From Deltaproteobacteria bacterium (GTDB taxonomy: Bacteria > Myxococcota_A > Polyangia > JAAYKL01), in contig JAQTNF010000027.1 in the NCBI GenBank assembly GCA_028713995.1, positions 1 through 43,655 of the forward strand: a stretch of DNA of 43,655 nucleotides. The letters are read 5' to 3'. The first letter of the stretch is position 1. Every line of letters starts with the position of its first letter. Shown here in pieces: positions 1-43,655 of this stretch. Made by a program: the position numbers and the translations under genes. A model generated the notes under the pieces. It was not told the DNA's origin. It was given only the letters and a program-made list of their open reading frames with translations, and did not search any database.

Positions 1-5702
<5,702 letters not shown>

Positions 5703-5994
5703 GTCGGCCTCCTGTGAAGACCTGGTTTTTCGTGCGGACCGCCCCTCGAAACGCAAGCGCGACCGCTGGGAAAGGGAGCCAATATCCCTCTCCTTGCTTA
5801 GAGGACAAATATACAAGAATTTTCCATAAGCGCCGTAAGGAAATAACAACCCCCGATTTCGACCTGAAAAAGAAGGTCATCGCGTTCCTTGCGAAAAAGA
5901 CGACATGGATGATAGAAATTGAATATTCAGTTGTCGAACAGGTCTTGAACGAGAAGTCGGCGGCATGTCGCCGCCACGATTGCGGAGGGTTCCC
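5703..5994. other. Divergent intergenic region, AT-richer than flanks
   Basis: This is about 290 bases between the divergent VWA gene and the Cys-rich lipoprotein gene. Positions 5790-5960 are clearly AT-richer than the genes, as expected for two back-to-back promoters. The ribosome binding sites of both genes are visible at its edges. I could not pick convincing -35/-10 pairs. A 94-codon open frame crosses it but has no family-like features. Confidence 0.5.
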
Positions 5995-36046: not shown

Positions 36047-37720
36047 ATGCGCACTTGCCAGCAATGTGGAGCGACCTTCGAAGGGGTCGAGACGTTCTGC
36101 CCCAACGACGGGACGCGCTTGTCGGAACCCCAGGAGCCCGCCGCGGTCGTCGCGCCGCCCAAGGTCATCATCGACCCACTCGTGGGGAAGGTGATCCAGG
36201 CGCGCTACCGGGTGATCGGCCGCATCGGCGAGGGCGGCATGGGCGTGGTCTACGTGGCCGAGCACGTGGAGATCGAGAAGAAGGTGGCGCTCAAGGTCCT
36301 GCGCGAGGACTTCTCCAAGCGGCCCGAGGTCGTGGAGCGCTTCCGGCAGGAGGCCAAGAGCGCGAGCCGCATCGGGCACGCGCACATCGTCGACGTGACA
36401 GACTTCGGCCAGCTCGAGGACGGCGGCGTGTACTTCGTCATGGAGTACCTGCAGGGCAAGTCCCTCTCCGATCTCGTGCGCAAGAAGGTCGTCCCGCTCG
36501 ACCGGGCCGTGCCCGTCATCCAGCAGATCGCCCGTGCGCTGCAGGCCGCGCACGACATGGGCATCGTCCACAGGGACCTGAAGCCCGAGAACGTGTTCCT
36601 CATCGAGCGCGACGAATATCAGGATTTCGTGAAAATCCTCGATTTCGGGATTGCAAAGATCTCCGATCGGGACGCGGACGGCAAGCGGCTCACCAAGACC
36701 GGCATGATCTTCGGGACTCCGGAATACATGTCGCCCGAACAGGCCGCGGGCAAGGCGCTCGATCACAGGGTCGACGTGTACGCGCTCGGATGCATCATGT
36801 TCGAGATGTTCACCGGGCGCGTGCCGTTCGAGGGCGACTCGTTCATGGCGGTGCTCACGCAGCACATGTTCGAGCCGGTGCCGCCCATCGAGGAGCTGTA
36901 CCGGCCCACGGACGTGCCGGCCTCCGTGCGCGCCGTGGTCTACAAGGCCATGGCCAAGGATCGCGACGAGCGGTACGCGGACATGACCGCGCTCCTCGCG
37001 GATCTGGATCGGGCGCTCGCTGATGCCAACTACGTCATCGAGACGCCCAAGGATCCCACGATGCGGCGCATCTTGCGCGACGACAGTGCGCGCGCGGCAG
37101 CGGCGCCGCACTCCACGCAAATGGACTGGGCGCCCAAGTCCGGTGCCTACCCGAAGTCCAAGAGTGGAGCGGTCAAGGCCATCGCCATCGCGGGAGGCGT
37201 GGTGTTGTTGCTCGGCGGCGGCACGGCCACGGCCTACTTCATGGGGCTGTTCGGCGCGGGGGCCAAGGTCGTGACGCCGACCCCCAAGGCGGTCGCGGCT
37301 GCTGCGGTTCCGGCTCCCGCTCCAGAGCCGGCCCCTGCTCCCGCACCGGTTCCTGCTCCCGCGGCGGTCCCCGCCCCCGAACCCAAGCGCGTGAGCGTGA
37401 AGATCGTGTCCGATCCGCCGGGCGCGGTGGTCTCGGTGCAGGGGATGGGACAGGTCTGCTCGAGCGCCCCGTGCAGCGTCGATCTCGTCGAGGGTGCATC
37501 GGTCGAGGTCGTGGCGCGGCTCAAGGACAAGACGGAGACCATGACCTTCACGCCCTCGCAGCAGAACAAGGAAATGAGCATTGCGTTCAAGGTCGCGCGG
37601 GCGGGCGGCAAGCCCAAGGGCGGTCGCGGTGGCGCGGGCGTCCCCAAGCCCAAGGGCGATTCCGGTGAGGTCGCGAGCCCGAGCGGGCTCAAGATCCCGG
37701 GCATCTTCAAGGACAACTAA
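36047..37720 (+). CDS. Hanks-type Ser/Thr protein kinase with zinc-ribbon-like N-terminus and PEGA domain
   Basis: This 557-residue protein has AGAGG upstream. Residues 4-22 hold CxxC and CPND, a zinc-ribbon-like knuckle with Asp in the fourth ligand position. The kinase domain (about 54-330) is complete: GEGGMGVVY loop, Lys83 in VALKVL, HRDLKPEN (175-182), DFG (199-201) and GTPEYMSPEQ. One membrane helix (about 379-400) leads to a Pro/Ala-rich spacer and a PEGA domain with VKIVSDPPGAVVSVQG outside the membrane. It likely phosphorylates cytoplasmic Ser/Thr targets in response to an envelope cue. Confidence 0.95.
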   Translation: MRTCQQCGATFEGVETFCPNDGTRLSEPQEPAAVVAPPKVIIDPLVGKVIQARYRVIGRIGEGGMGVVYVAEHVEIEKKVALKVLREDFSKRPEVVERFRQEAKSASRIGHAHIVDVTDFGQLEDGGVYFVMEYLQGKSLSDLVRKKVVPLDRAVPVIQQIARALQAAHDMGIVHRDLKPENVFLIERDEYQDFVKILDFGIAKISDRDADGKRLTKTGMIFGTPEYMSPEQAAGKALDHRVDVYALGCIMFEMFTGRVPFEGDSFMAVLTQHMFEPVPPIEELYRPTDVPASVRAVVYKAMAKDRDERYADMTALLADLDRALADANYVIETPKDPTMRRILRDDSARAAAAPHSTQMDWAPKSGAYPKSKSGAVKAIAIAGGVVLLLGGGTATAYFMGLFGAGAKVVTPTPKAVAAAAVPAPAPEPAPAPAPVPAPAAVPAPEPKRVSVKIVSDPPGAVVSVQGMGQVCSSAPCSVDLVEGASVEVVARLKDKTETMTFTPSQQNKEMSIAFKVARAGGKPKGGRGGAGVPKPKGDSGEVASPSGLKIPGIFKDN

Positions 37721-37847
37721 CAGAGGGCTCCTGGCCCGCCAGTCCCGTTTGTCCCCAAAAACCGGCCCGGCCGTGGTCTGTTTCTTCCAGAATTCGGCCG
37801 TTTCCCGCGCAGCTTCTGCTTTGTAAGAATAATGGCAAGGAAATTGC

Positions 37848-37875
37848 TTGACCGGTTTCTCGCGTCAACTATCCT
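37848..37875 (+). promoter_or_regulatory. Possible promoter of the giant protease gene
   Basis: TTGACC (37848-37853), a 16-nt spacer and TATCCT (37870-37875) lie about 75 nt before the start codon at 37950. Nothing else was recognised in 37721-37949. Confidence 0.45.
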
Positions 37876-37949
37876 CGTTTTAAGGCCAATGAACAAATCG
37901 CTCTGGGGAAGCTGGATGTCCCGGCCGGGACCACAACGAGGAGACCATC

Positions 37950-40900
37950 ATGAATAAGCACGCCCCCTCCCTTATAGACATTCGTTCAGTCGCGGAGAGT
38001 AGCTCTCTTCCCGCGCGGCTATCACTCGGGCTCATCATCTTGGTCTCTATGACCCAGATCCTCGCGGTGGGGTGTGAAGACGGAACCCAAAGCGCTCCAT
38101 CGCCGAACGTGGGCAAGTCCCAGAGCGCGTTGAACGGCGACAACGTCAAGGACATCACCGATTTCGACGATCCCGACTACGTGGCGCACCGCAGAGCCAC
38201 GTTCGCAATGGGATGGAGTACAGACCTAAGAGAGACTTCTTGCAGCGGAATCGCCATAGATCCCTACCACGTTATCACTGCAGCCCACTGCGTCACAGAC
38301 GGAGAGGTGATCTACGGAAGTGTCAGATCCATCAACTTCGGACGGGAGCATTGGTTATTTAAATGGCCCGGGCATGGCGTTTACCCACAGTGCGACGAGG
38401 ATCTCGAATGTCGCAACATCAGTGCCCCCGGTTCTGTAGAGCACGGTTGCGCTTGTGAGAACACCATCTACCCGGCGAACAACTACTCCGGGGTGTTCAT
38501 TGCCGACGACTACAGTTGCTGCAAGGACTGGCCCAAAGACGTGGCGTTATTGAGGCTGAGATACGGCCTGTATCACTATCCCGACGTGGGATATTACGAC
38601 GTCTTCAAATCTCCATACAACAGCGATTATGAGGGAACCGACTACGATTGGGACAATGGTATATTTCCAGATAACCCGGTTCTGTTGGGTGAACCAGGCA
38701 ACATTCTAGGATATGGATGGAGTGATTGCTCGGCAGGCAGCGGGGGTGGAACTAGTGGGAAAGGCCGCCTTCGATATGGTTGGGATTTCAATCTATTTGG
38801 ATTTGGAGGCGACACACGGGAGTTTCAATTCACGGGAACGTCATGGGTCTGCAAGGCAGATTCCGGCTCTCCCGTTTTCAAAGCGAACAACCGGCTCGTG
38901 GGTCTTGCTGTCGGTTTGTACTATGATGGCAGTCGCGATATCGGCGTAGAATTGATGAACCATGGAGCGGACCATTCTCATTGGACCTGGATTGTCAACC
39001 AAATCCTCCAAGATCGTGCGACGTACGACCAAGACGGGGATGGAATCTATAGCTACGATGACAACTGCCCTGGTAACAACGAGACAGACTACAATCCTGG
39101 GCAGCGGGACTATGACCAGGACGGGCGCGGCAACGCGTGCGACCCGTGTGCGAGGTTGGCGAGAGTCGAGAGCGCCCACCAGAAAAGAAACATCTGCTTC
39201 CCAAAAGAGGATCACGGCAACTGCCTTGAATACAATTACGACAAGCCGAGCTACTGGCCATCCAAGCCGGCAACCTGGTACTACGCAGACTACGACGGCG
39301 ACGGCATCCCGAACGCGTGCGACAACTGCGTGGACATCCCCAATACGGACCAAGCCGACACGAACGGCAACTCCTTGACAACGGAGGGTGCGCTTTTCGG
39401 ATATACAGGCGATAAATGCGATCCTGTTCCCTCTCTGGTGATAGACAAGAGTAGATTCAGCCCATCCTCATTCAGCACGGGGGGCTATGGTTGGTCCGTG
39501 ACGCCGAAGTCCGCGATAGAGATCCCGATGATTACCGTGGGGCAGGCTGCGATTCCCGCAGGTCCCATTCAGAAGGAAGTCGCGGTGAAGTTCTGCGATT
39601 GCGGTTACGTCAAGCCGAAAGGGAAAGTGGACGACCTTAAAGATTACTGTAAGAGAAATAACTGTGTGGCAGATGTTTTTGGGATAGCGCAAAATCGAAA
39701 GAGCTGGTGCCCGATATCCTATGACAAGGGTCCGATGTCCGACGAAGCCAAGGACTACACGTCCATGGAGTATACGAACGATGGTCAAACCTTCTACTAC
39801 ATCAAACAACAAGGAGATTGCGACAAGTCGTCATACACCGCTGGCTGGGACCGCTTTGTAGACGCGGATTTCCTTGATTGCCACGGTCAACCGATCGGTC
39901 CGTCATGTTCCACAATTCAAGAGACCGTCGAGCTGTGCGACACGCTCAAGAACGTGCCGTTCGTGTCCGGGAACAAAACCGAGACCAATGCGACCACGGT
40001 CACCTGGCGATGGATGCAGGAGGCCTGGTGGCATCACCGGCAGACCGTGGAATCGGCAATCGCCGCGTTCACGCCAGGAGCCATTGGAGCCTGGGGATTC
40101 CTCTGGGCGCGCGGGATGGGGTTCGACGCGGACAAGACGCCGGAACAATATCTGGATTTCAATATCCCGCTGGGAAGATTCAACATCGTCATGCCGTTGG
40201 GCAAGATCCCGGCCGTCATCAGGCCGATAGGGGGCGATCCGATCGAGAACGTCGATCCGTGCGCGAGCCCGATCATCAACATGGTCGAGGTGGCGCGCTT
40301 TACGAATGAAAGGGGGCAAGGGAAGTTCTATCCGGCGGACAAGATCCAGGACGGCTCGGCCGTGTCGGCGATCAGGTTCGTGGCGTTCGACCGCGGGAAC
40401 TCCCGGGCGAAAGCCGAGGGATACTCGACCTACCAGGGAAACATCGCCATCAACACGACGAGCTCGGCCGTGACGGGTTTCGTGCTCAACGCGGTTCAAG
40501 GGCAGAGTTTGGAGAGCGGTACACTCGGCGCTCCGGGCGCCCCTCCACCTCCGAGCAATCCGGGCGCAAAGGGGACATGGTTCGCGCTGTTCGGAGGCGA
40601 GGACGCCAACGGCACCCTGTCTTCCACCCTGTGGCTCGGCCACGTGCTGCCCCAGGATCGGGAAGGGGACTTCGTGGTCTCGTGGGTCCACACCCCGGCC
40701 GGGATCCTTGCACCGAGCGGACGTCGCAACGCGATCCTGGCGTTCGACCCCGACAGACAGCGGCTCGTGCTGGTCGGCGGCGACACCGGGACGTCTGTGC
40801 TTTCGGACGCGTGGGAGATCGACGCGCAGGGCGCGTGGCGACAGATTGAGATTCAAGGGCTCCCGAACGGCCTGACCGAGACTTCGGTGGTTCCATGGGG

Positions 40901-43655
40901 CGAGCAGGTGCTGCTCGTGGGAGGTCGCGACAGCCAGGGCTTAGTTGACGGGGTCCGTGTCCTCGACCTGGACACCATGACCGTGTCGACTCTGGCCACC
41001 GGAGGCCCGGGCGCCCGGATCAATGCCACGGCCGCGCTGGACCAGCAGAGACGTGACCTGGTGGTGTACGGCGGCCGCGACGGCTCGAGCACGGTGCACT
41101 CGGATCTGTGGCGTCTCGACCTCGGGAGCTGGGAATGGACGCTGGTTTCCGCGGACGACGCCACGGGACCGACGGCCGAGGAAGGCTCGCTCGTGCTTCC
41201 GGGCTCGGACGGGCTCTCGGTGTACGTGTACCCCAGGAACATCAGCAACGGCGTGCCGTACTGGAAGCACAACGGCGCGAGGTGGATGACGCAGCTTGAG
41301 AACGAGCCCGACGGCGACTACGACCTCGACGGCATTCCCAACGCGGCGGACCCGGATCCCTGGACTCCGGAGCAGGACACCGACACGGATACCGAGACCG
41401 AGGCCGTGACGTGCCACGATCCCAGCGTGCCGAATTGCGGCGCCGAGCCTTGCGTGGACGGTTTCTGCTGCGACGACGTGTGCGACGAATGCGAGGCGTG
41501 CAACCTCCCAGGGACCGAAGGGACGTGCTACCCGGTGGCGAACGGGTCCCCATGCTCATCCGGCGCGTGCCAGTGGGGCGTGTGCGTGGACCAGTGCTAC
41601 ATCGGAATCGATTGGTACGACGACGGGGAGACCGACCCGGAGAACGAGTGCCAGGTGTGCGCTCCGGCCGCGGACGGCAACTGGTGGACGAGCAAGCCGG
41701 CCTGGACCGTGTGCGCGGGCGGCGTGTGCGATGGGTTCGGCAATTGCGTTACAACAACGAGCGCATGTGCTCCGGACGAGGTCCTTGAGCCCGGCACCAC
41801 GGACGTGTGCTGGAAGCGCTGCCCGCTGGGCCAGACGTGGAGCGGTTCCGGGTGCGTGGGAACCGCGACGAGCTACACCCAGCTCGACGCCATTGCCGCG
41901 TGCCAAGCGCTCGCCAACTTCACGCAGAACTGGCGGCTTGCGACCACGCGGGACTACGCGCGCATCCTGGGCAATGCGAGCGTGGGCACAGAGACCGGGC
42001 CGCGCTTCACGGGCACGTCCTGCACCGATCCGTCCACGGCCTGCTACGCGATGTTCAACGCAGACATGCAGAGCGCGTCCGGGCTGTGGACCGGAAGCAT
42101 CGCGAGCTCCACGAACGGCGCCCTGGCTGACCTGGGCGCGGGCTCCGCGTCGAGCATTGCGTTCGGCGGGAGCTACTCCGCGTTGTGCCTCAGGAACCTC
42201 GATTCCGCCGCGGCGTGTGAGGCCTCGGCCTCGTCGTTCGTGTACAGCTTCGAAGACGGCGAGCCGGCCACGACATTGTTCGGATGTCAGAGCTGCTGGA
42301 GCGTGGGGCCTCCCACGCCCAACGCGTCGGCTCCGTCTGTCGCGCAGTCAGGCACGAACCTGCTCGGATGCCCGCGCACCGAGGTGTACTCGAACAACCT
42401 GGACTACCACAACAACTGGGCCGAGGGACCGCGCACGAGCGTCTGGGAGGGCTTCAAGCTGGCGGCGTGCGCCGGGCAGAGCGTGAAGGTGAGCTTCTCC
42501 ATGTGGACGGACATGGAGCCCAACCCGAGCTGCAACGGCTGCTGCGACGGCGTGTGGCTGGAGATCTCCCCGGACGGCGGGTACACGTGGGCCATGGTGC
42601 CCACGTCGGTGCCGTTCACGGACGCGTACGGCAACTGGTGCCTGCCGAATTCGGGCTGGCAGGAGCACACGCTCACGCTGCCGGCTTCGTACATCAACGA
42701 CCAGTTCCGCATGCGGTGGATGTTCTACTCCAACAGCCAGAACCGGTTCCGCGGCCCGTTCGTGGACAACGTGCGGGTCGTGCCGTCGCAGTGCGACATC
42801 GACGGCGCCCTGTACGCGGACGGAGCTGTGAACCCCGAGAACGAATGCCAGGTCTGCAACGCGGCCTTGAGCGCCACGTCGTGGTCCGTTGGGACCGACG
42901 GGACCGAGTGCTCGAACGGCCTGTGCCATACGGGCTCGTGCTCTTTCGATGAATGCCTCATCAACGGCACCTGGTACGAGGCGGGCGCGGCTGTCACGGG
43001 CTGCACGTACTGCTCGCCCGCGACGAGCTCGACCTCGGCCACCAACCGTCCGGCAGGCTTTGACGGCGGCTGCGGCACGAGCACGTGCGCCGTGGACACC
43101 TGCGCGGGCAACGTGTTCTACGACTACCCCGGAACCTGCCAGAAGACCTGCAACGCCAGCGGCTCGTGCGATTCGTCGTGCACGTGCACGGCCAGCCAGA
43201 CGGCCTGCACGGCCGGAGGATGCTGCGTCGCGGCGTGCACCACCACGCAGAGCCCGAATTGCACCACCACGGCCGGCACGTGCGCGGACGTGTGCGGCGG
43301 GTCCACGAACACCGTGGGCCGCTCCTGCGGAGGCTGCGGCGGACAAGACGCCAGCGGCACGTGCGCAGGCGGAACGTCCGTCACATGCGGGTCCGGGAAC
43401 AACTGCACGAGCATGTCGTGCGGCGGGATCACGTACTATTGCAACGCCGCGACCTCGACCTGGCAGACCACGAGTCCAAGCACCTGCTGCGCTGCGGACG
43501 AAGTGCAGGAGCACGGCGGAACCGCGTGCTGGAAGCGCTGTCCGCTCGGCCAGACGTGGAGTGGATCCGCGTGCACTGGCACGGCCACTACGTACACCCA
43601 TGCGAACGGGATCTCGGCGTGCCAGGCCCTCGCGACCTCTTCATCCAACTACCGC
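37950..43655 (+). CDS. Giant exported multidomain trypsin-like protease with Kelch-like and Cys-rich repeats (partial, C-terminus off right edge)
   Basis: The frame is open for 1902 codons from ATG 37950, with GAGGAG upstream, to the window edge. A signal with possible lipobox ends near AVGC (Cys42). A trypsin-like domain follows: His113 in VITAAHCV, Asp197 in DVALLRL and Ser305 in ADSGSP, where the usual GDSGGP is altered. Thrombospondin type 3-like Ca repeats come next (DYDQDGDGIYSYDDNC, DYDGDGIPNACDNC). From about residue 870, Kelch-like blades carry repeated LFGGED, LVGGD, LVGGRD and VYGGRD. A DTDTDTETE linker and Cys-rich modules with CWKRCPLGQTWSGS follow. It is probably surface-attached; the substrates are unknown. 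Confidence 0.9.
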   Translation, partial: MNKHAPSLIDIRSVAESSSLPARLSLGLIILVSMTQILAVGCEDGTQSAPSPNVGKSQSALNGDNVKDITDFDDPDYVAHRRATFAMGWSTDLRETSCSGIAIDPYHVITAAHCVTDGEVIYGSVRSINFGREHWLFKWPGHGVYPQCDEDLECRNISAPGSVEHGCACENTIYPANNYSGVFIADDYSCCKDWPKDVALLRLRYGLYHYPDVGYYDVFKSPYNSDYEGTDYDWDNGIFPDNPVLLGEPGNILGYGWSDCSAGSGGGTSGKGRLRYGWDFNLFGFGGDTREFQFTGTSWVCKADSGSPVFKANNRLVGLAVGLYYDGSRDIGVELMNHGADHSHWTWIVNQILQDRATYDQDGDGIYSYDDNCPGNNETDYNPGQRDYDQDGRGNACDPCARLARVESAHQKRNICFPKEDHGNCLEYNYDKPSYWPSKPATWYYADYDGDGIPNACDNCVDIPNTDQADTNGNSLTTEGALFGYTGDKCDPVPSLVIDKSRFSPSSFSTGGYGWSVTPKSAIEIPMITVGQAAIPAGPIQKEVAVKFCDCGYVKPKGKVDDLKDYCKRNNCVADVFGIAQNRKSWCPISYDKGPMSDEAKDYTSMEYTNDGQTFYYIKQQGDCDKSSYTAGWDRFVDADFLDCHGQPIGPSCSTIQETVELCDTLKNVPFVSGNKTETNATTVTWRWMQEAWWHHRQTVESAIAAFTPGAIGAWGFLWARGMGFDADKTPEQYLDFNIPLGRFNIVMPLGKIPAVIRPIGGDPIENVDPCASPIINMVEVARFTNERGQGKFYPADKIQDGSAVSAIRFVAFDRGNSRAKAEGYSTYQGNIAINTTSSAVTGFVLNAVQGQSLESGTLGAPGAPPPPSNPGAKGTWFALFGGEDANGTLSSTLWLGHVLPQDREGDFVVSWVHTPAGILAPSGRRNAILAFDPDRQRLVLVGGDTGTSVLSDAWEIDAQGAWRQIEIQGLPNGLTETSVVPWGEQVLLVGGRDSQGLVDGVRVLDLDTMTVSTLATGGPGARINATAALDQQRRDLVVYGGRDGSSTVHSDLWRLDLGSWEWTLVSADDATGPTAEEGSLVLPGSDGLSVYVYPRNISNGVPYWKHNGARWMTQLENEPDGDYDLDGIPNAADPDPWTPEQDTDTDTETEAVTCHDPSVPNCGAEPCVDGFCCDDVCDECEACNLPGTEGTCYPVANGSPCSSGACQWGVCVDQCYIGIDWYDDGETDPENECQVCAPAADGNWWTSKPAWTVCAGGVCDGFGNCVTTTSACAPDEVLEPGTTDVCWKRCPLGQTWSGSGCVGTATSYTQLDAIAACQALANFTQNWRLATTRDYARILGNASVGTETGPRFTGTSCTDPSTACYAMFNADMQSASGLWTGSIASSTNGALADLGAGSASSIAFGGSYSALCLRNLDSAAACEASASSFVYSFEDGEPATTLFGCQSCWSVGPPTPNASAPSVAQSGTNLLGCPRTEVYSNNLDYHNNWAEGPRTSVWEGFKLAACAGQSVKVSFSMWTDMEPNPSCNGCCDGVWLEISPDGGYTWAMVPTSVPFTDAYGNWCLPNSGWQEHTLTLPASYINDQFRMRWMFYSNSQNRFRGPFVDNVRVVPSQCDIDGALYADGAVNPENECQVCNAALSATSWSVGTDGTECSNGLCHTGSCSFDECLINGTWYEAGAAVTGCTYCSPATSSTSATNRPAGFDGGCGTSTCAVDTCAGNVFYDYPGTCQKTCNASGSCDSSCTCTASQTACTAGGCCVAACTTTQSPNCTTTAGTCADVCGGSTNTVGRSCGGCGGQDASGTCAGGTSVTCGSGNNCTSMSCGGITYYCNAATSTWQTTSPSTCCAADEVQEHGGTACWKRCPLGQTWSGSACTGTATTYTHANGISACQALATSSSNYR
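41808..43655 (+). repeat. Repeated CWKRCPLGQTWSGS module in the giant protease
   Basis: The stretch from 41808 recurs from 43527, an offset of 1719 nt (573 codons), and both encode CWKRCPLGQTWSGS followed by GTAT.YT and ACQALA. The second copy is cut by the window edge. NPENECQVC-type segments recur at about 41634 and 42833. The module resembles DUF1566-type domains, which is my guess from the WRLATTRDY segment. Confidence 0.75.

Follow-up and report, generated by a model that had tools for sequence, protein, structure and literature searches.

The window, meaning the whole stretch of 43,655 nucleotides analysed here, makes up contig C27 (1-43655) of a 4.98-Mb genome in 218 contigs. At its right end an open frame on the forward strand begins with ATG at 37950 and runs stop-free to 43655 (1,902 codons); the contig end cuts the encoded protein, for which 1,902 aa is a minimum length. 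The protein reads, in order, as an S1-type protease, thrombospondin type 3 (TSP3) repeats, a Cys/Trp-rich domain, a Kelch propeller and Cys-rich modules (Table 1), in agreement with a preliminary description of one frame of over 1,900 residues joining a protease to TSP3-like, Kelch-like and Cys-rich parts. By eye, the gene upstream (36047-37720) looks like one for a serine/threonine protein kinase that ends in a transmembrane and Ala/Pro-rich part. Another very long frame (3-5717, forward strand, 1,904 aa) is open at the left contig end, and a long frame on the opposite strand overlaps it.

Table 1 Features of the window gene and its upstream region
Feature	Position	Strand	Basis
Upstream 139 bases, promoter/RBS region	37806..37944	+	95% identical to C132 upstream
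Signal peptide, lipobox-like ...ILAVGC (Cys42), predicted lipoprotein	37950..38075	+	Scripted pattern match
S1 (chymotrypsin-fold) protease head, aa 63-355; H113, D197, S305; ADSGSP	38136..39014	+	Pfam, motifs, homologue alignment
High-divergence segment versus C132, codons 86-333, likely exchanged cassette	38205..38948	+	0/10000 permutations reach segment score
Thrombospondin type 3 (calcium) repeats	39015..39431	+	Pfam TSP_3 30.2 bits; 97.6% nt identity to C132
Central Cys/Trp-rich domain (FCDC ... WRWMQEAWWHH)	39420..40568	+	Without Pfam match or credible PDB match
Kelch beta-propeller	40569..41339	+	PF24681 71.7 bits, aa 878-1076
Asp/Thr-rich linker	41340..41417	+	Sequence
Cys-rich segment 1	41418..41765	+	Sequence
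Repeat module part A (CWKRCPLGQTWSG ... WRLATTRD)	41766..42224	+	Repeat comparison
Repeat module part B (MAM/reelin-like, weak)	42225..42782	+	Reelin_subrepeat-B 18.9 bits, cut-off 27
Cys-rich segments 2 and 3	42783..43487	+	Sequence, C132 comparison
Second module copy, start only, cut by contig end	43488..43655	+	Repeat comparison
Overlap with contig C59 start, likely continuation	43445..43655	+	206/211 bases identical

Contig C59 opens with a 211-base stretch that agrees with the final 211 bases of the window at 206 positions; among nine copies compared, the runner-up agrees at 187 of 211. C59 is likely the continuation of the window gene, and this inferred join would give a protein of about 2,184 aa. 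The same genome holds a complete twin on contig C132, with 2,186 aa, the same domain order at full length and 84% aa identity over residues 1-1902.

The catalytic residues H113 (AAHC), D197 (KDVALL) and S305 (ADSGSP) are intact at the positions first proposed, forming a His-Asp-Ser triad in S1 order with AAHC and DSG motifs. By itself, the window protein scores 22.2 bits against Trypsin_2 (Pfam cut-off 27.6), and a PDB sequence search with the head gave weak trypsin-like matches only (best E 0.029). The S1 assignment follows from two homologues, L074 (656 aa) and L075 (635 aa), of the same bacterial family but different genera. Both pass PF00089 (42.0 and 35.8 bits, cut-off 20.6), and in a four-row alignment with the window protein and C132 none of H, D and S varies. 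On this alignment the head is a divergent S1 protease in which Ala replaces the oxyanion Gly. Compared with the two homologues it has an extra Cys-rich insert between His and Asp, and unlike the S1 family it continues into TSP3, Kelch and module sequence. A profile search at E 1e-15 found the head in 3 of 317 genomes of the class. After their S1 heads, L074 (2479-4446) and L075 (2-1906) have TSP3-like sequence and then non-Kelch C-terminal halves, mutually alike, that read as a further scaffold type behind the same S1 head.

The ADSGSP motif, singled out earlier as a departure from GDSGGP, is present in both the window protein and C132, and only half of the contrast stands. A303, which we take to be position 193 in chymotrypsin numbering, is unusual, Gly being typical but not strictly required at the S1 oxyanion position, and might lower protease activity. 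The Ser after Gly is not unusual here, since L117, an S1-headed protein of another family of the class, has GDSGSP; L074 and L075, the two nearest homologues, have GDSGGP. Trp299, six residues before Ser305 (C-x-x-D-S motif), presumably occupies the position of trypsin's specificity Asp, which makes a tryptic specificity unlikely.

Behind the head, TSP_3 (30.2 bits, cut-off 25) and Kelch PF24681 (71.7 bits, cut-off 50) both exceed their Pfam cut-offs, calcium motifs of the form D.[DN].[DN]G occur at residues 360, 387, 447 and 1123, and the Cys-rich modules are real. The Omp28-related selenoprotein model (NF045500) scored far below its cut-off (39.5 against 200; best stretch 349-404). The central domain, which we call CDC/WWHH, had no match in a Pfam search and a chance match (E 1.3) in a PDB sequence search. 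With the top candidates per genome scored, it occurs in 5 of 317 class genomes and 3 of 377 phylum genomes, all of them in the organism's own family. Against the central domain of proteins with a peptidase C25 head, an HMM gave E 0.0085 for the window protein and 1.9 for C132 (best decoy 0.043; 1,010 sequences), and hhalign gave E 1.6e-4 and a probability of 51% for the window protein versus the C25 type; homology between the two is marginal on these comparisons. One central domain common to all heads was rejected, as C14, G010b and G002 have another kind in the HMM and hhalign tests. A combined central-plus-Kelch profile at E 1e-10 matched in 130 of 317 class genomes, chiefly through the Kelch part alone; the rows of C14, G010b and G002 were built into it, making their own matches true by construction. 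Structure prediction of this region from four sequences (mean pLDDT 38.3) was too poor to interpret.

Divergence between the window gene and C132 is mosaic. The protease is 77.3% identical at the nucleotide level (dN 0.137, dS 1.25), against 97.6% for TSP3 (dS 0.075), 91.8% for the central domain and 94.7% for Kelch (dS 0.16). The 139 upstream bases are 95% identical, and beyond them no upstream sequence matches. In the first module, part A has its positional partner in C132 as nearest relative (85% nt), and part B, 66.5% identical to its partner, has its closest likeness in other genes (up to 82% nt, against 67% for that partner). Of the four-fold sites, 28 of 46 are divergent in codons 201-352 versus 41 of 367 in codons 353-1130 (Fisher p 2.8e-13, for regions picked after the region-wise identities were known). 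Just past the best divergent segment, codon 335 differs and the next 20 codons are identical, four-fold divergence dropping from 61% to 11%. Jumps of this kind in silent-site divergence, placed at domain borders, suggest that exchange or gene conversion took place. The organism's own genome, which has two S1 head copies only, yielded no donor for the diverged head. A dN/dS of about 0.11 in the head (NG86, near saturation, with dS not computable for codons 300-355) argues for purifying selection and hence for a head that is probably functional.

The more interesting point lay outside the window: related scaffolds carry unrelated heads, and between the window gene and its twin the head has diverged much further than the scaffold. 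Peptidase C25 heads precede a TSP3/Kelch scaffold in C53 of the same genome (1,878 aa; 141 bits) and in G010 (1,956 aa; 140 bits), and G017 has a papain-like head just under the cut-off (18.6 versus 20.7 bits). Kelch, mostly after TSP3-like repeats, also occurs in G001, G002, G012, G010b and C14, whose heads are without a firm Pfam match. L062 and L064, from the same bacterial family, are proteins with a gingipain-type peptidase C25. With the window protein they share a central domain, of marginal homology, and Kelch behind a protease head, but they differ in their unrelated cysteine protease, in a lipobox absent by pattern and in an extra segment after Kelch, LVIVD-type in L064.

Fifteen further frames came from the class, of which 11 were scanned against Pfam (L119 in part, without a match) and four (L123, L126, L127 and L128) were read by eye or used in the post-Kelch comparison. 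L117, from genome G026, has S1 (44.9 bits) and Kelch (58.1, cut-off 50) above their cut-offs, TSP3 below (19.8, cut-off 25) and LVIVD (41.6). L122, cut by its contig, probably has the S1-TSP3-Kelch order as well (S1 43.6, TSP3 32.2, Kelch 25 against a cut-off of 50). A papain-like match slightly below cut-off accompanies TSP3 and Kelch in L129; L131 has Kelch and, though no Pfam peptidase model matched, looks papain-like by eye, and L121 shows a HELGH motif by eye. Five more scaffolds have Kelch, most with TSP3 or LVIVD, and matched no peptidase model. The preliminary description knew of no second protein with this order. With C132 repeating it entirely, S1-TSP3-Kelch present in L117 and probably also in L122, the S1-TSP3-Kelch order is rare but recurrent rather than unique. 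In the literature searched on Kelch, LVIVD, TSP3, peptidase C25, secreted peptidases and gene conversion or domain swapping, the architecture was not described.

Scaffolds of different families are further linked by a segment after Kelch that C25-type proteins have in common with C108 and L117. A model of it, made from the C25-type proteins and their close kin, matched C108 (5e-17) and S1-headed L117 (1e-18) as well as L124, L125, L118 and L129, and more weakly L126, L123 and L130; no shuffled decoy matched at E 0.1. The window protein and C132 are without the LVIVD propeller that follows Kelch in other scaffolds, so the notion of one scaffold holds best for TSP3 plus Kelch.

The C-terminal module, about 337 aa long, was found by profile search at E below 1e-20 in 14 places of the organism's genome, of which eight are complete, four run off a contig end and two (C5 and C33) are fragments. 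In all eight loci with the 3' end present, a stop follows directly, making the module the extreme C-terminus; internal copies exist in the window protein, C132 and C108. At E 1e-20 the organism's own genome was the single one among 377 phylum genomes to give a match to the module, and the best match elsewhere in its family (14 genomes) was 1e-13, so by these searches the module appears species-private. Its carriers differ at the N-terminus: S1 in the window gene and C132, a V8-like head by eye in C108 and an alpha/beta-hydrolase-like head in C14 (DUF676, 13 bits, cut-off 20.3). No enzyme was seen in the carriers on C25 and C30, and C30, composed of a lipobox (by eye), an SD stalk and the module, suits a role of the module as a display tip. 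Any MAM/reelin likeness of part B is only suggestive, its Reelin_subrepeat-B score lying below the cut-off. The module had no match up to E 1 among PDB sequences, and its structure prediction from one sequence (mean pLDDT 40.7) was too poor to interpret.

Broken module fragments in L018 (7903-8349) and L017 (8207-8410), one internally deleted and one fused to unrelated sequence, are possible silent copies, decayed copies or assembly errors. Cys/SD-rich genes follow module genes (L011 1058-3605; L009 14209-14742; L010 1-986; L017 8411-9636) and by eye encode lipoproteins with propeller-like repeats. Those after the stop in C59 and C132 are of the same kind (86% nt identical), and C59 has a tandem pair (81% nt). 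The genes behind C108 and C33 resemble each other (69% nt), and C59 and C33 are weakly alike. A 2,588-aa frame in L020 (3751-11514) has 14 FG-GAP stretches, window-like Cys-rich repeats and an SD-rich tail.

Several other explanations were weighed. An in-frame join of unrelated genes by the assembler is already largely refuted and very improbable: the assembly is fragmented and a contig end falls in a repeat, but C132, an independent contig, reads the whole order end to end and S1-TSP3-Kelch recurs in another genome (L117), so that the assembly join held out earlier as a refutation is nowhere visible in the frame. The protein could also be an ordinary secreted multidomain peptidase built by one-off domain accretion, its head diverged through uneven rates with no exchange. 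Large mosaic secreted proteins are common in the group, as the breadth of the central-plus-Kelch profile across the class illustrates, yet uneven constraint on the protein cannot explain the drop at silent sites across the domain border, and we consider this account rather unlikely.

Two further alternatives concern the ends of the protein. The head could be a pseudoprotease that lost its oxyanion Gly and serves as a binding domain, an idea encouraged by the sharing of ADSGSP between both copies where two homologues have GDSGGP. PMC5524700 points both ways, describing a reoriented 192-193 peptide in factor XIa when residue 193 is non-Gly and naming G193A as an example of high activity; with the triad invariant in every aligned row and the low dN/dS of the head, we judge a pseudoprotease quite improbable. 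A role of the C-terminal module as a signal for sorting or attachment, instead of as a distal binding tip, is possible, if doubtful: its invariable terminal position, common to enzymes and non-enzymes, speaks for a signal, whereas the internal copies, its length and the prior anchoring of lipobox-bearing proteins speak against one.

The reading we lean towards, at modest confidence, is that the window protein is an outer-membrane lipoprotein peptidase whose head was replaced as a unit, like a cassette, while the scaffold stayed conserved. The lipobox-like signal peptide at Cys42 suggests a lipid-anchored N-terminus and an outer-membrane lipoprotein; the pattern also matches in C132, L117 and L122, is seen by eye in L074 and L075, and is absent by pattern match from ten scaffolds (C108, C14, C53, L064-L068, L129 and L121). 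The protein would belong, as the catalytic member, to a small family of very large surface lipoproteins that are probably anchored in the outer membrane. Its anchored N-terminus would hold the S1 protease near the membrane, the calcium-bound TSP3 repeats, central domain and Kelch propeller would form a stalk or binding platform, and one or two copies of the species-private Cys-rich module would form the distal tip. Tip and propeller may capture a macromolecular or cell-surface target, which the membrane-proximal protease would cut at the base. Relative to its twin, the head would have been exchanged, or kept diverged, as a cassette, while a recent duplication, or gene conversion, would have left scaffold and upstream region near-identical; unrelated hydrolases are borne by related scaffolds.

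Domain-shuffled secreted hydrolases are an already known kind, of which the window protein is a variant. Polymorphic secreted proteins combine a shared scaffold with swapped enzymatic ends; in the window protein, by contrast, the enzyme sits at the N-terminus and the shared part at the C-terminus. More speculatively, this uncultured lineage may possess a cassette system in which S1, C25, papain-like and lipase-like heads are recombined on TSP3/Kelch surface scaffolds, with the private tip module spread over many surface proteins, gene conversion keeping its copies alike and the C5 and C33 fragments as possible silent copies. Two further outcomes are an unannotated domain, CDC/WWHH, and a private C-terminal module in many copies, with a putative role in tip binding or sorting. 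If the cassette reading is true, bacteria would diversify the enzymes on their surface through replacement of entire catalytic heads while the display scaffold stays constant, leaving the footprint of recombination at the domain border.
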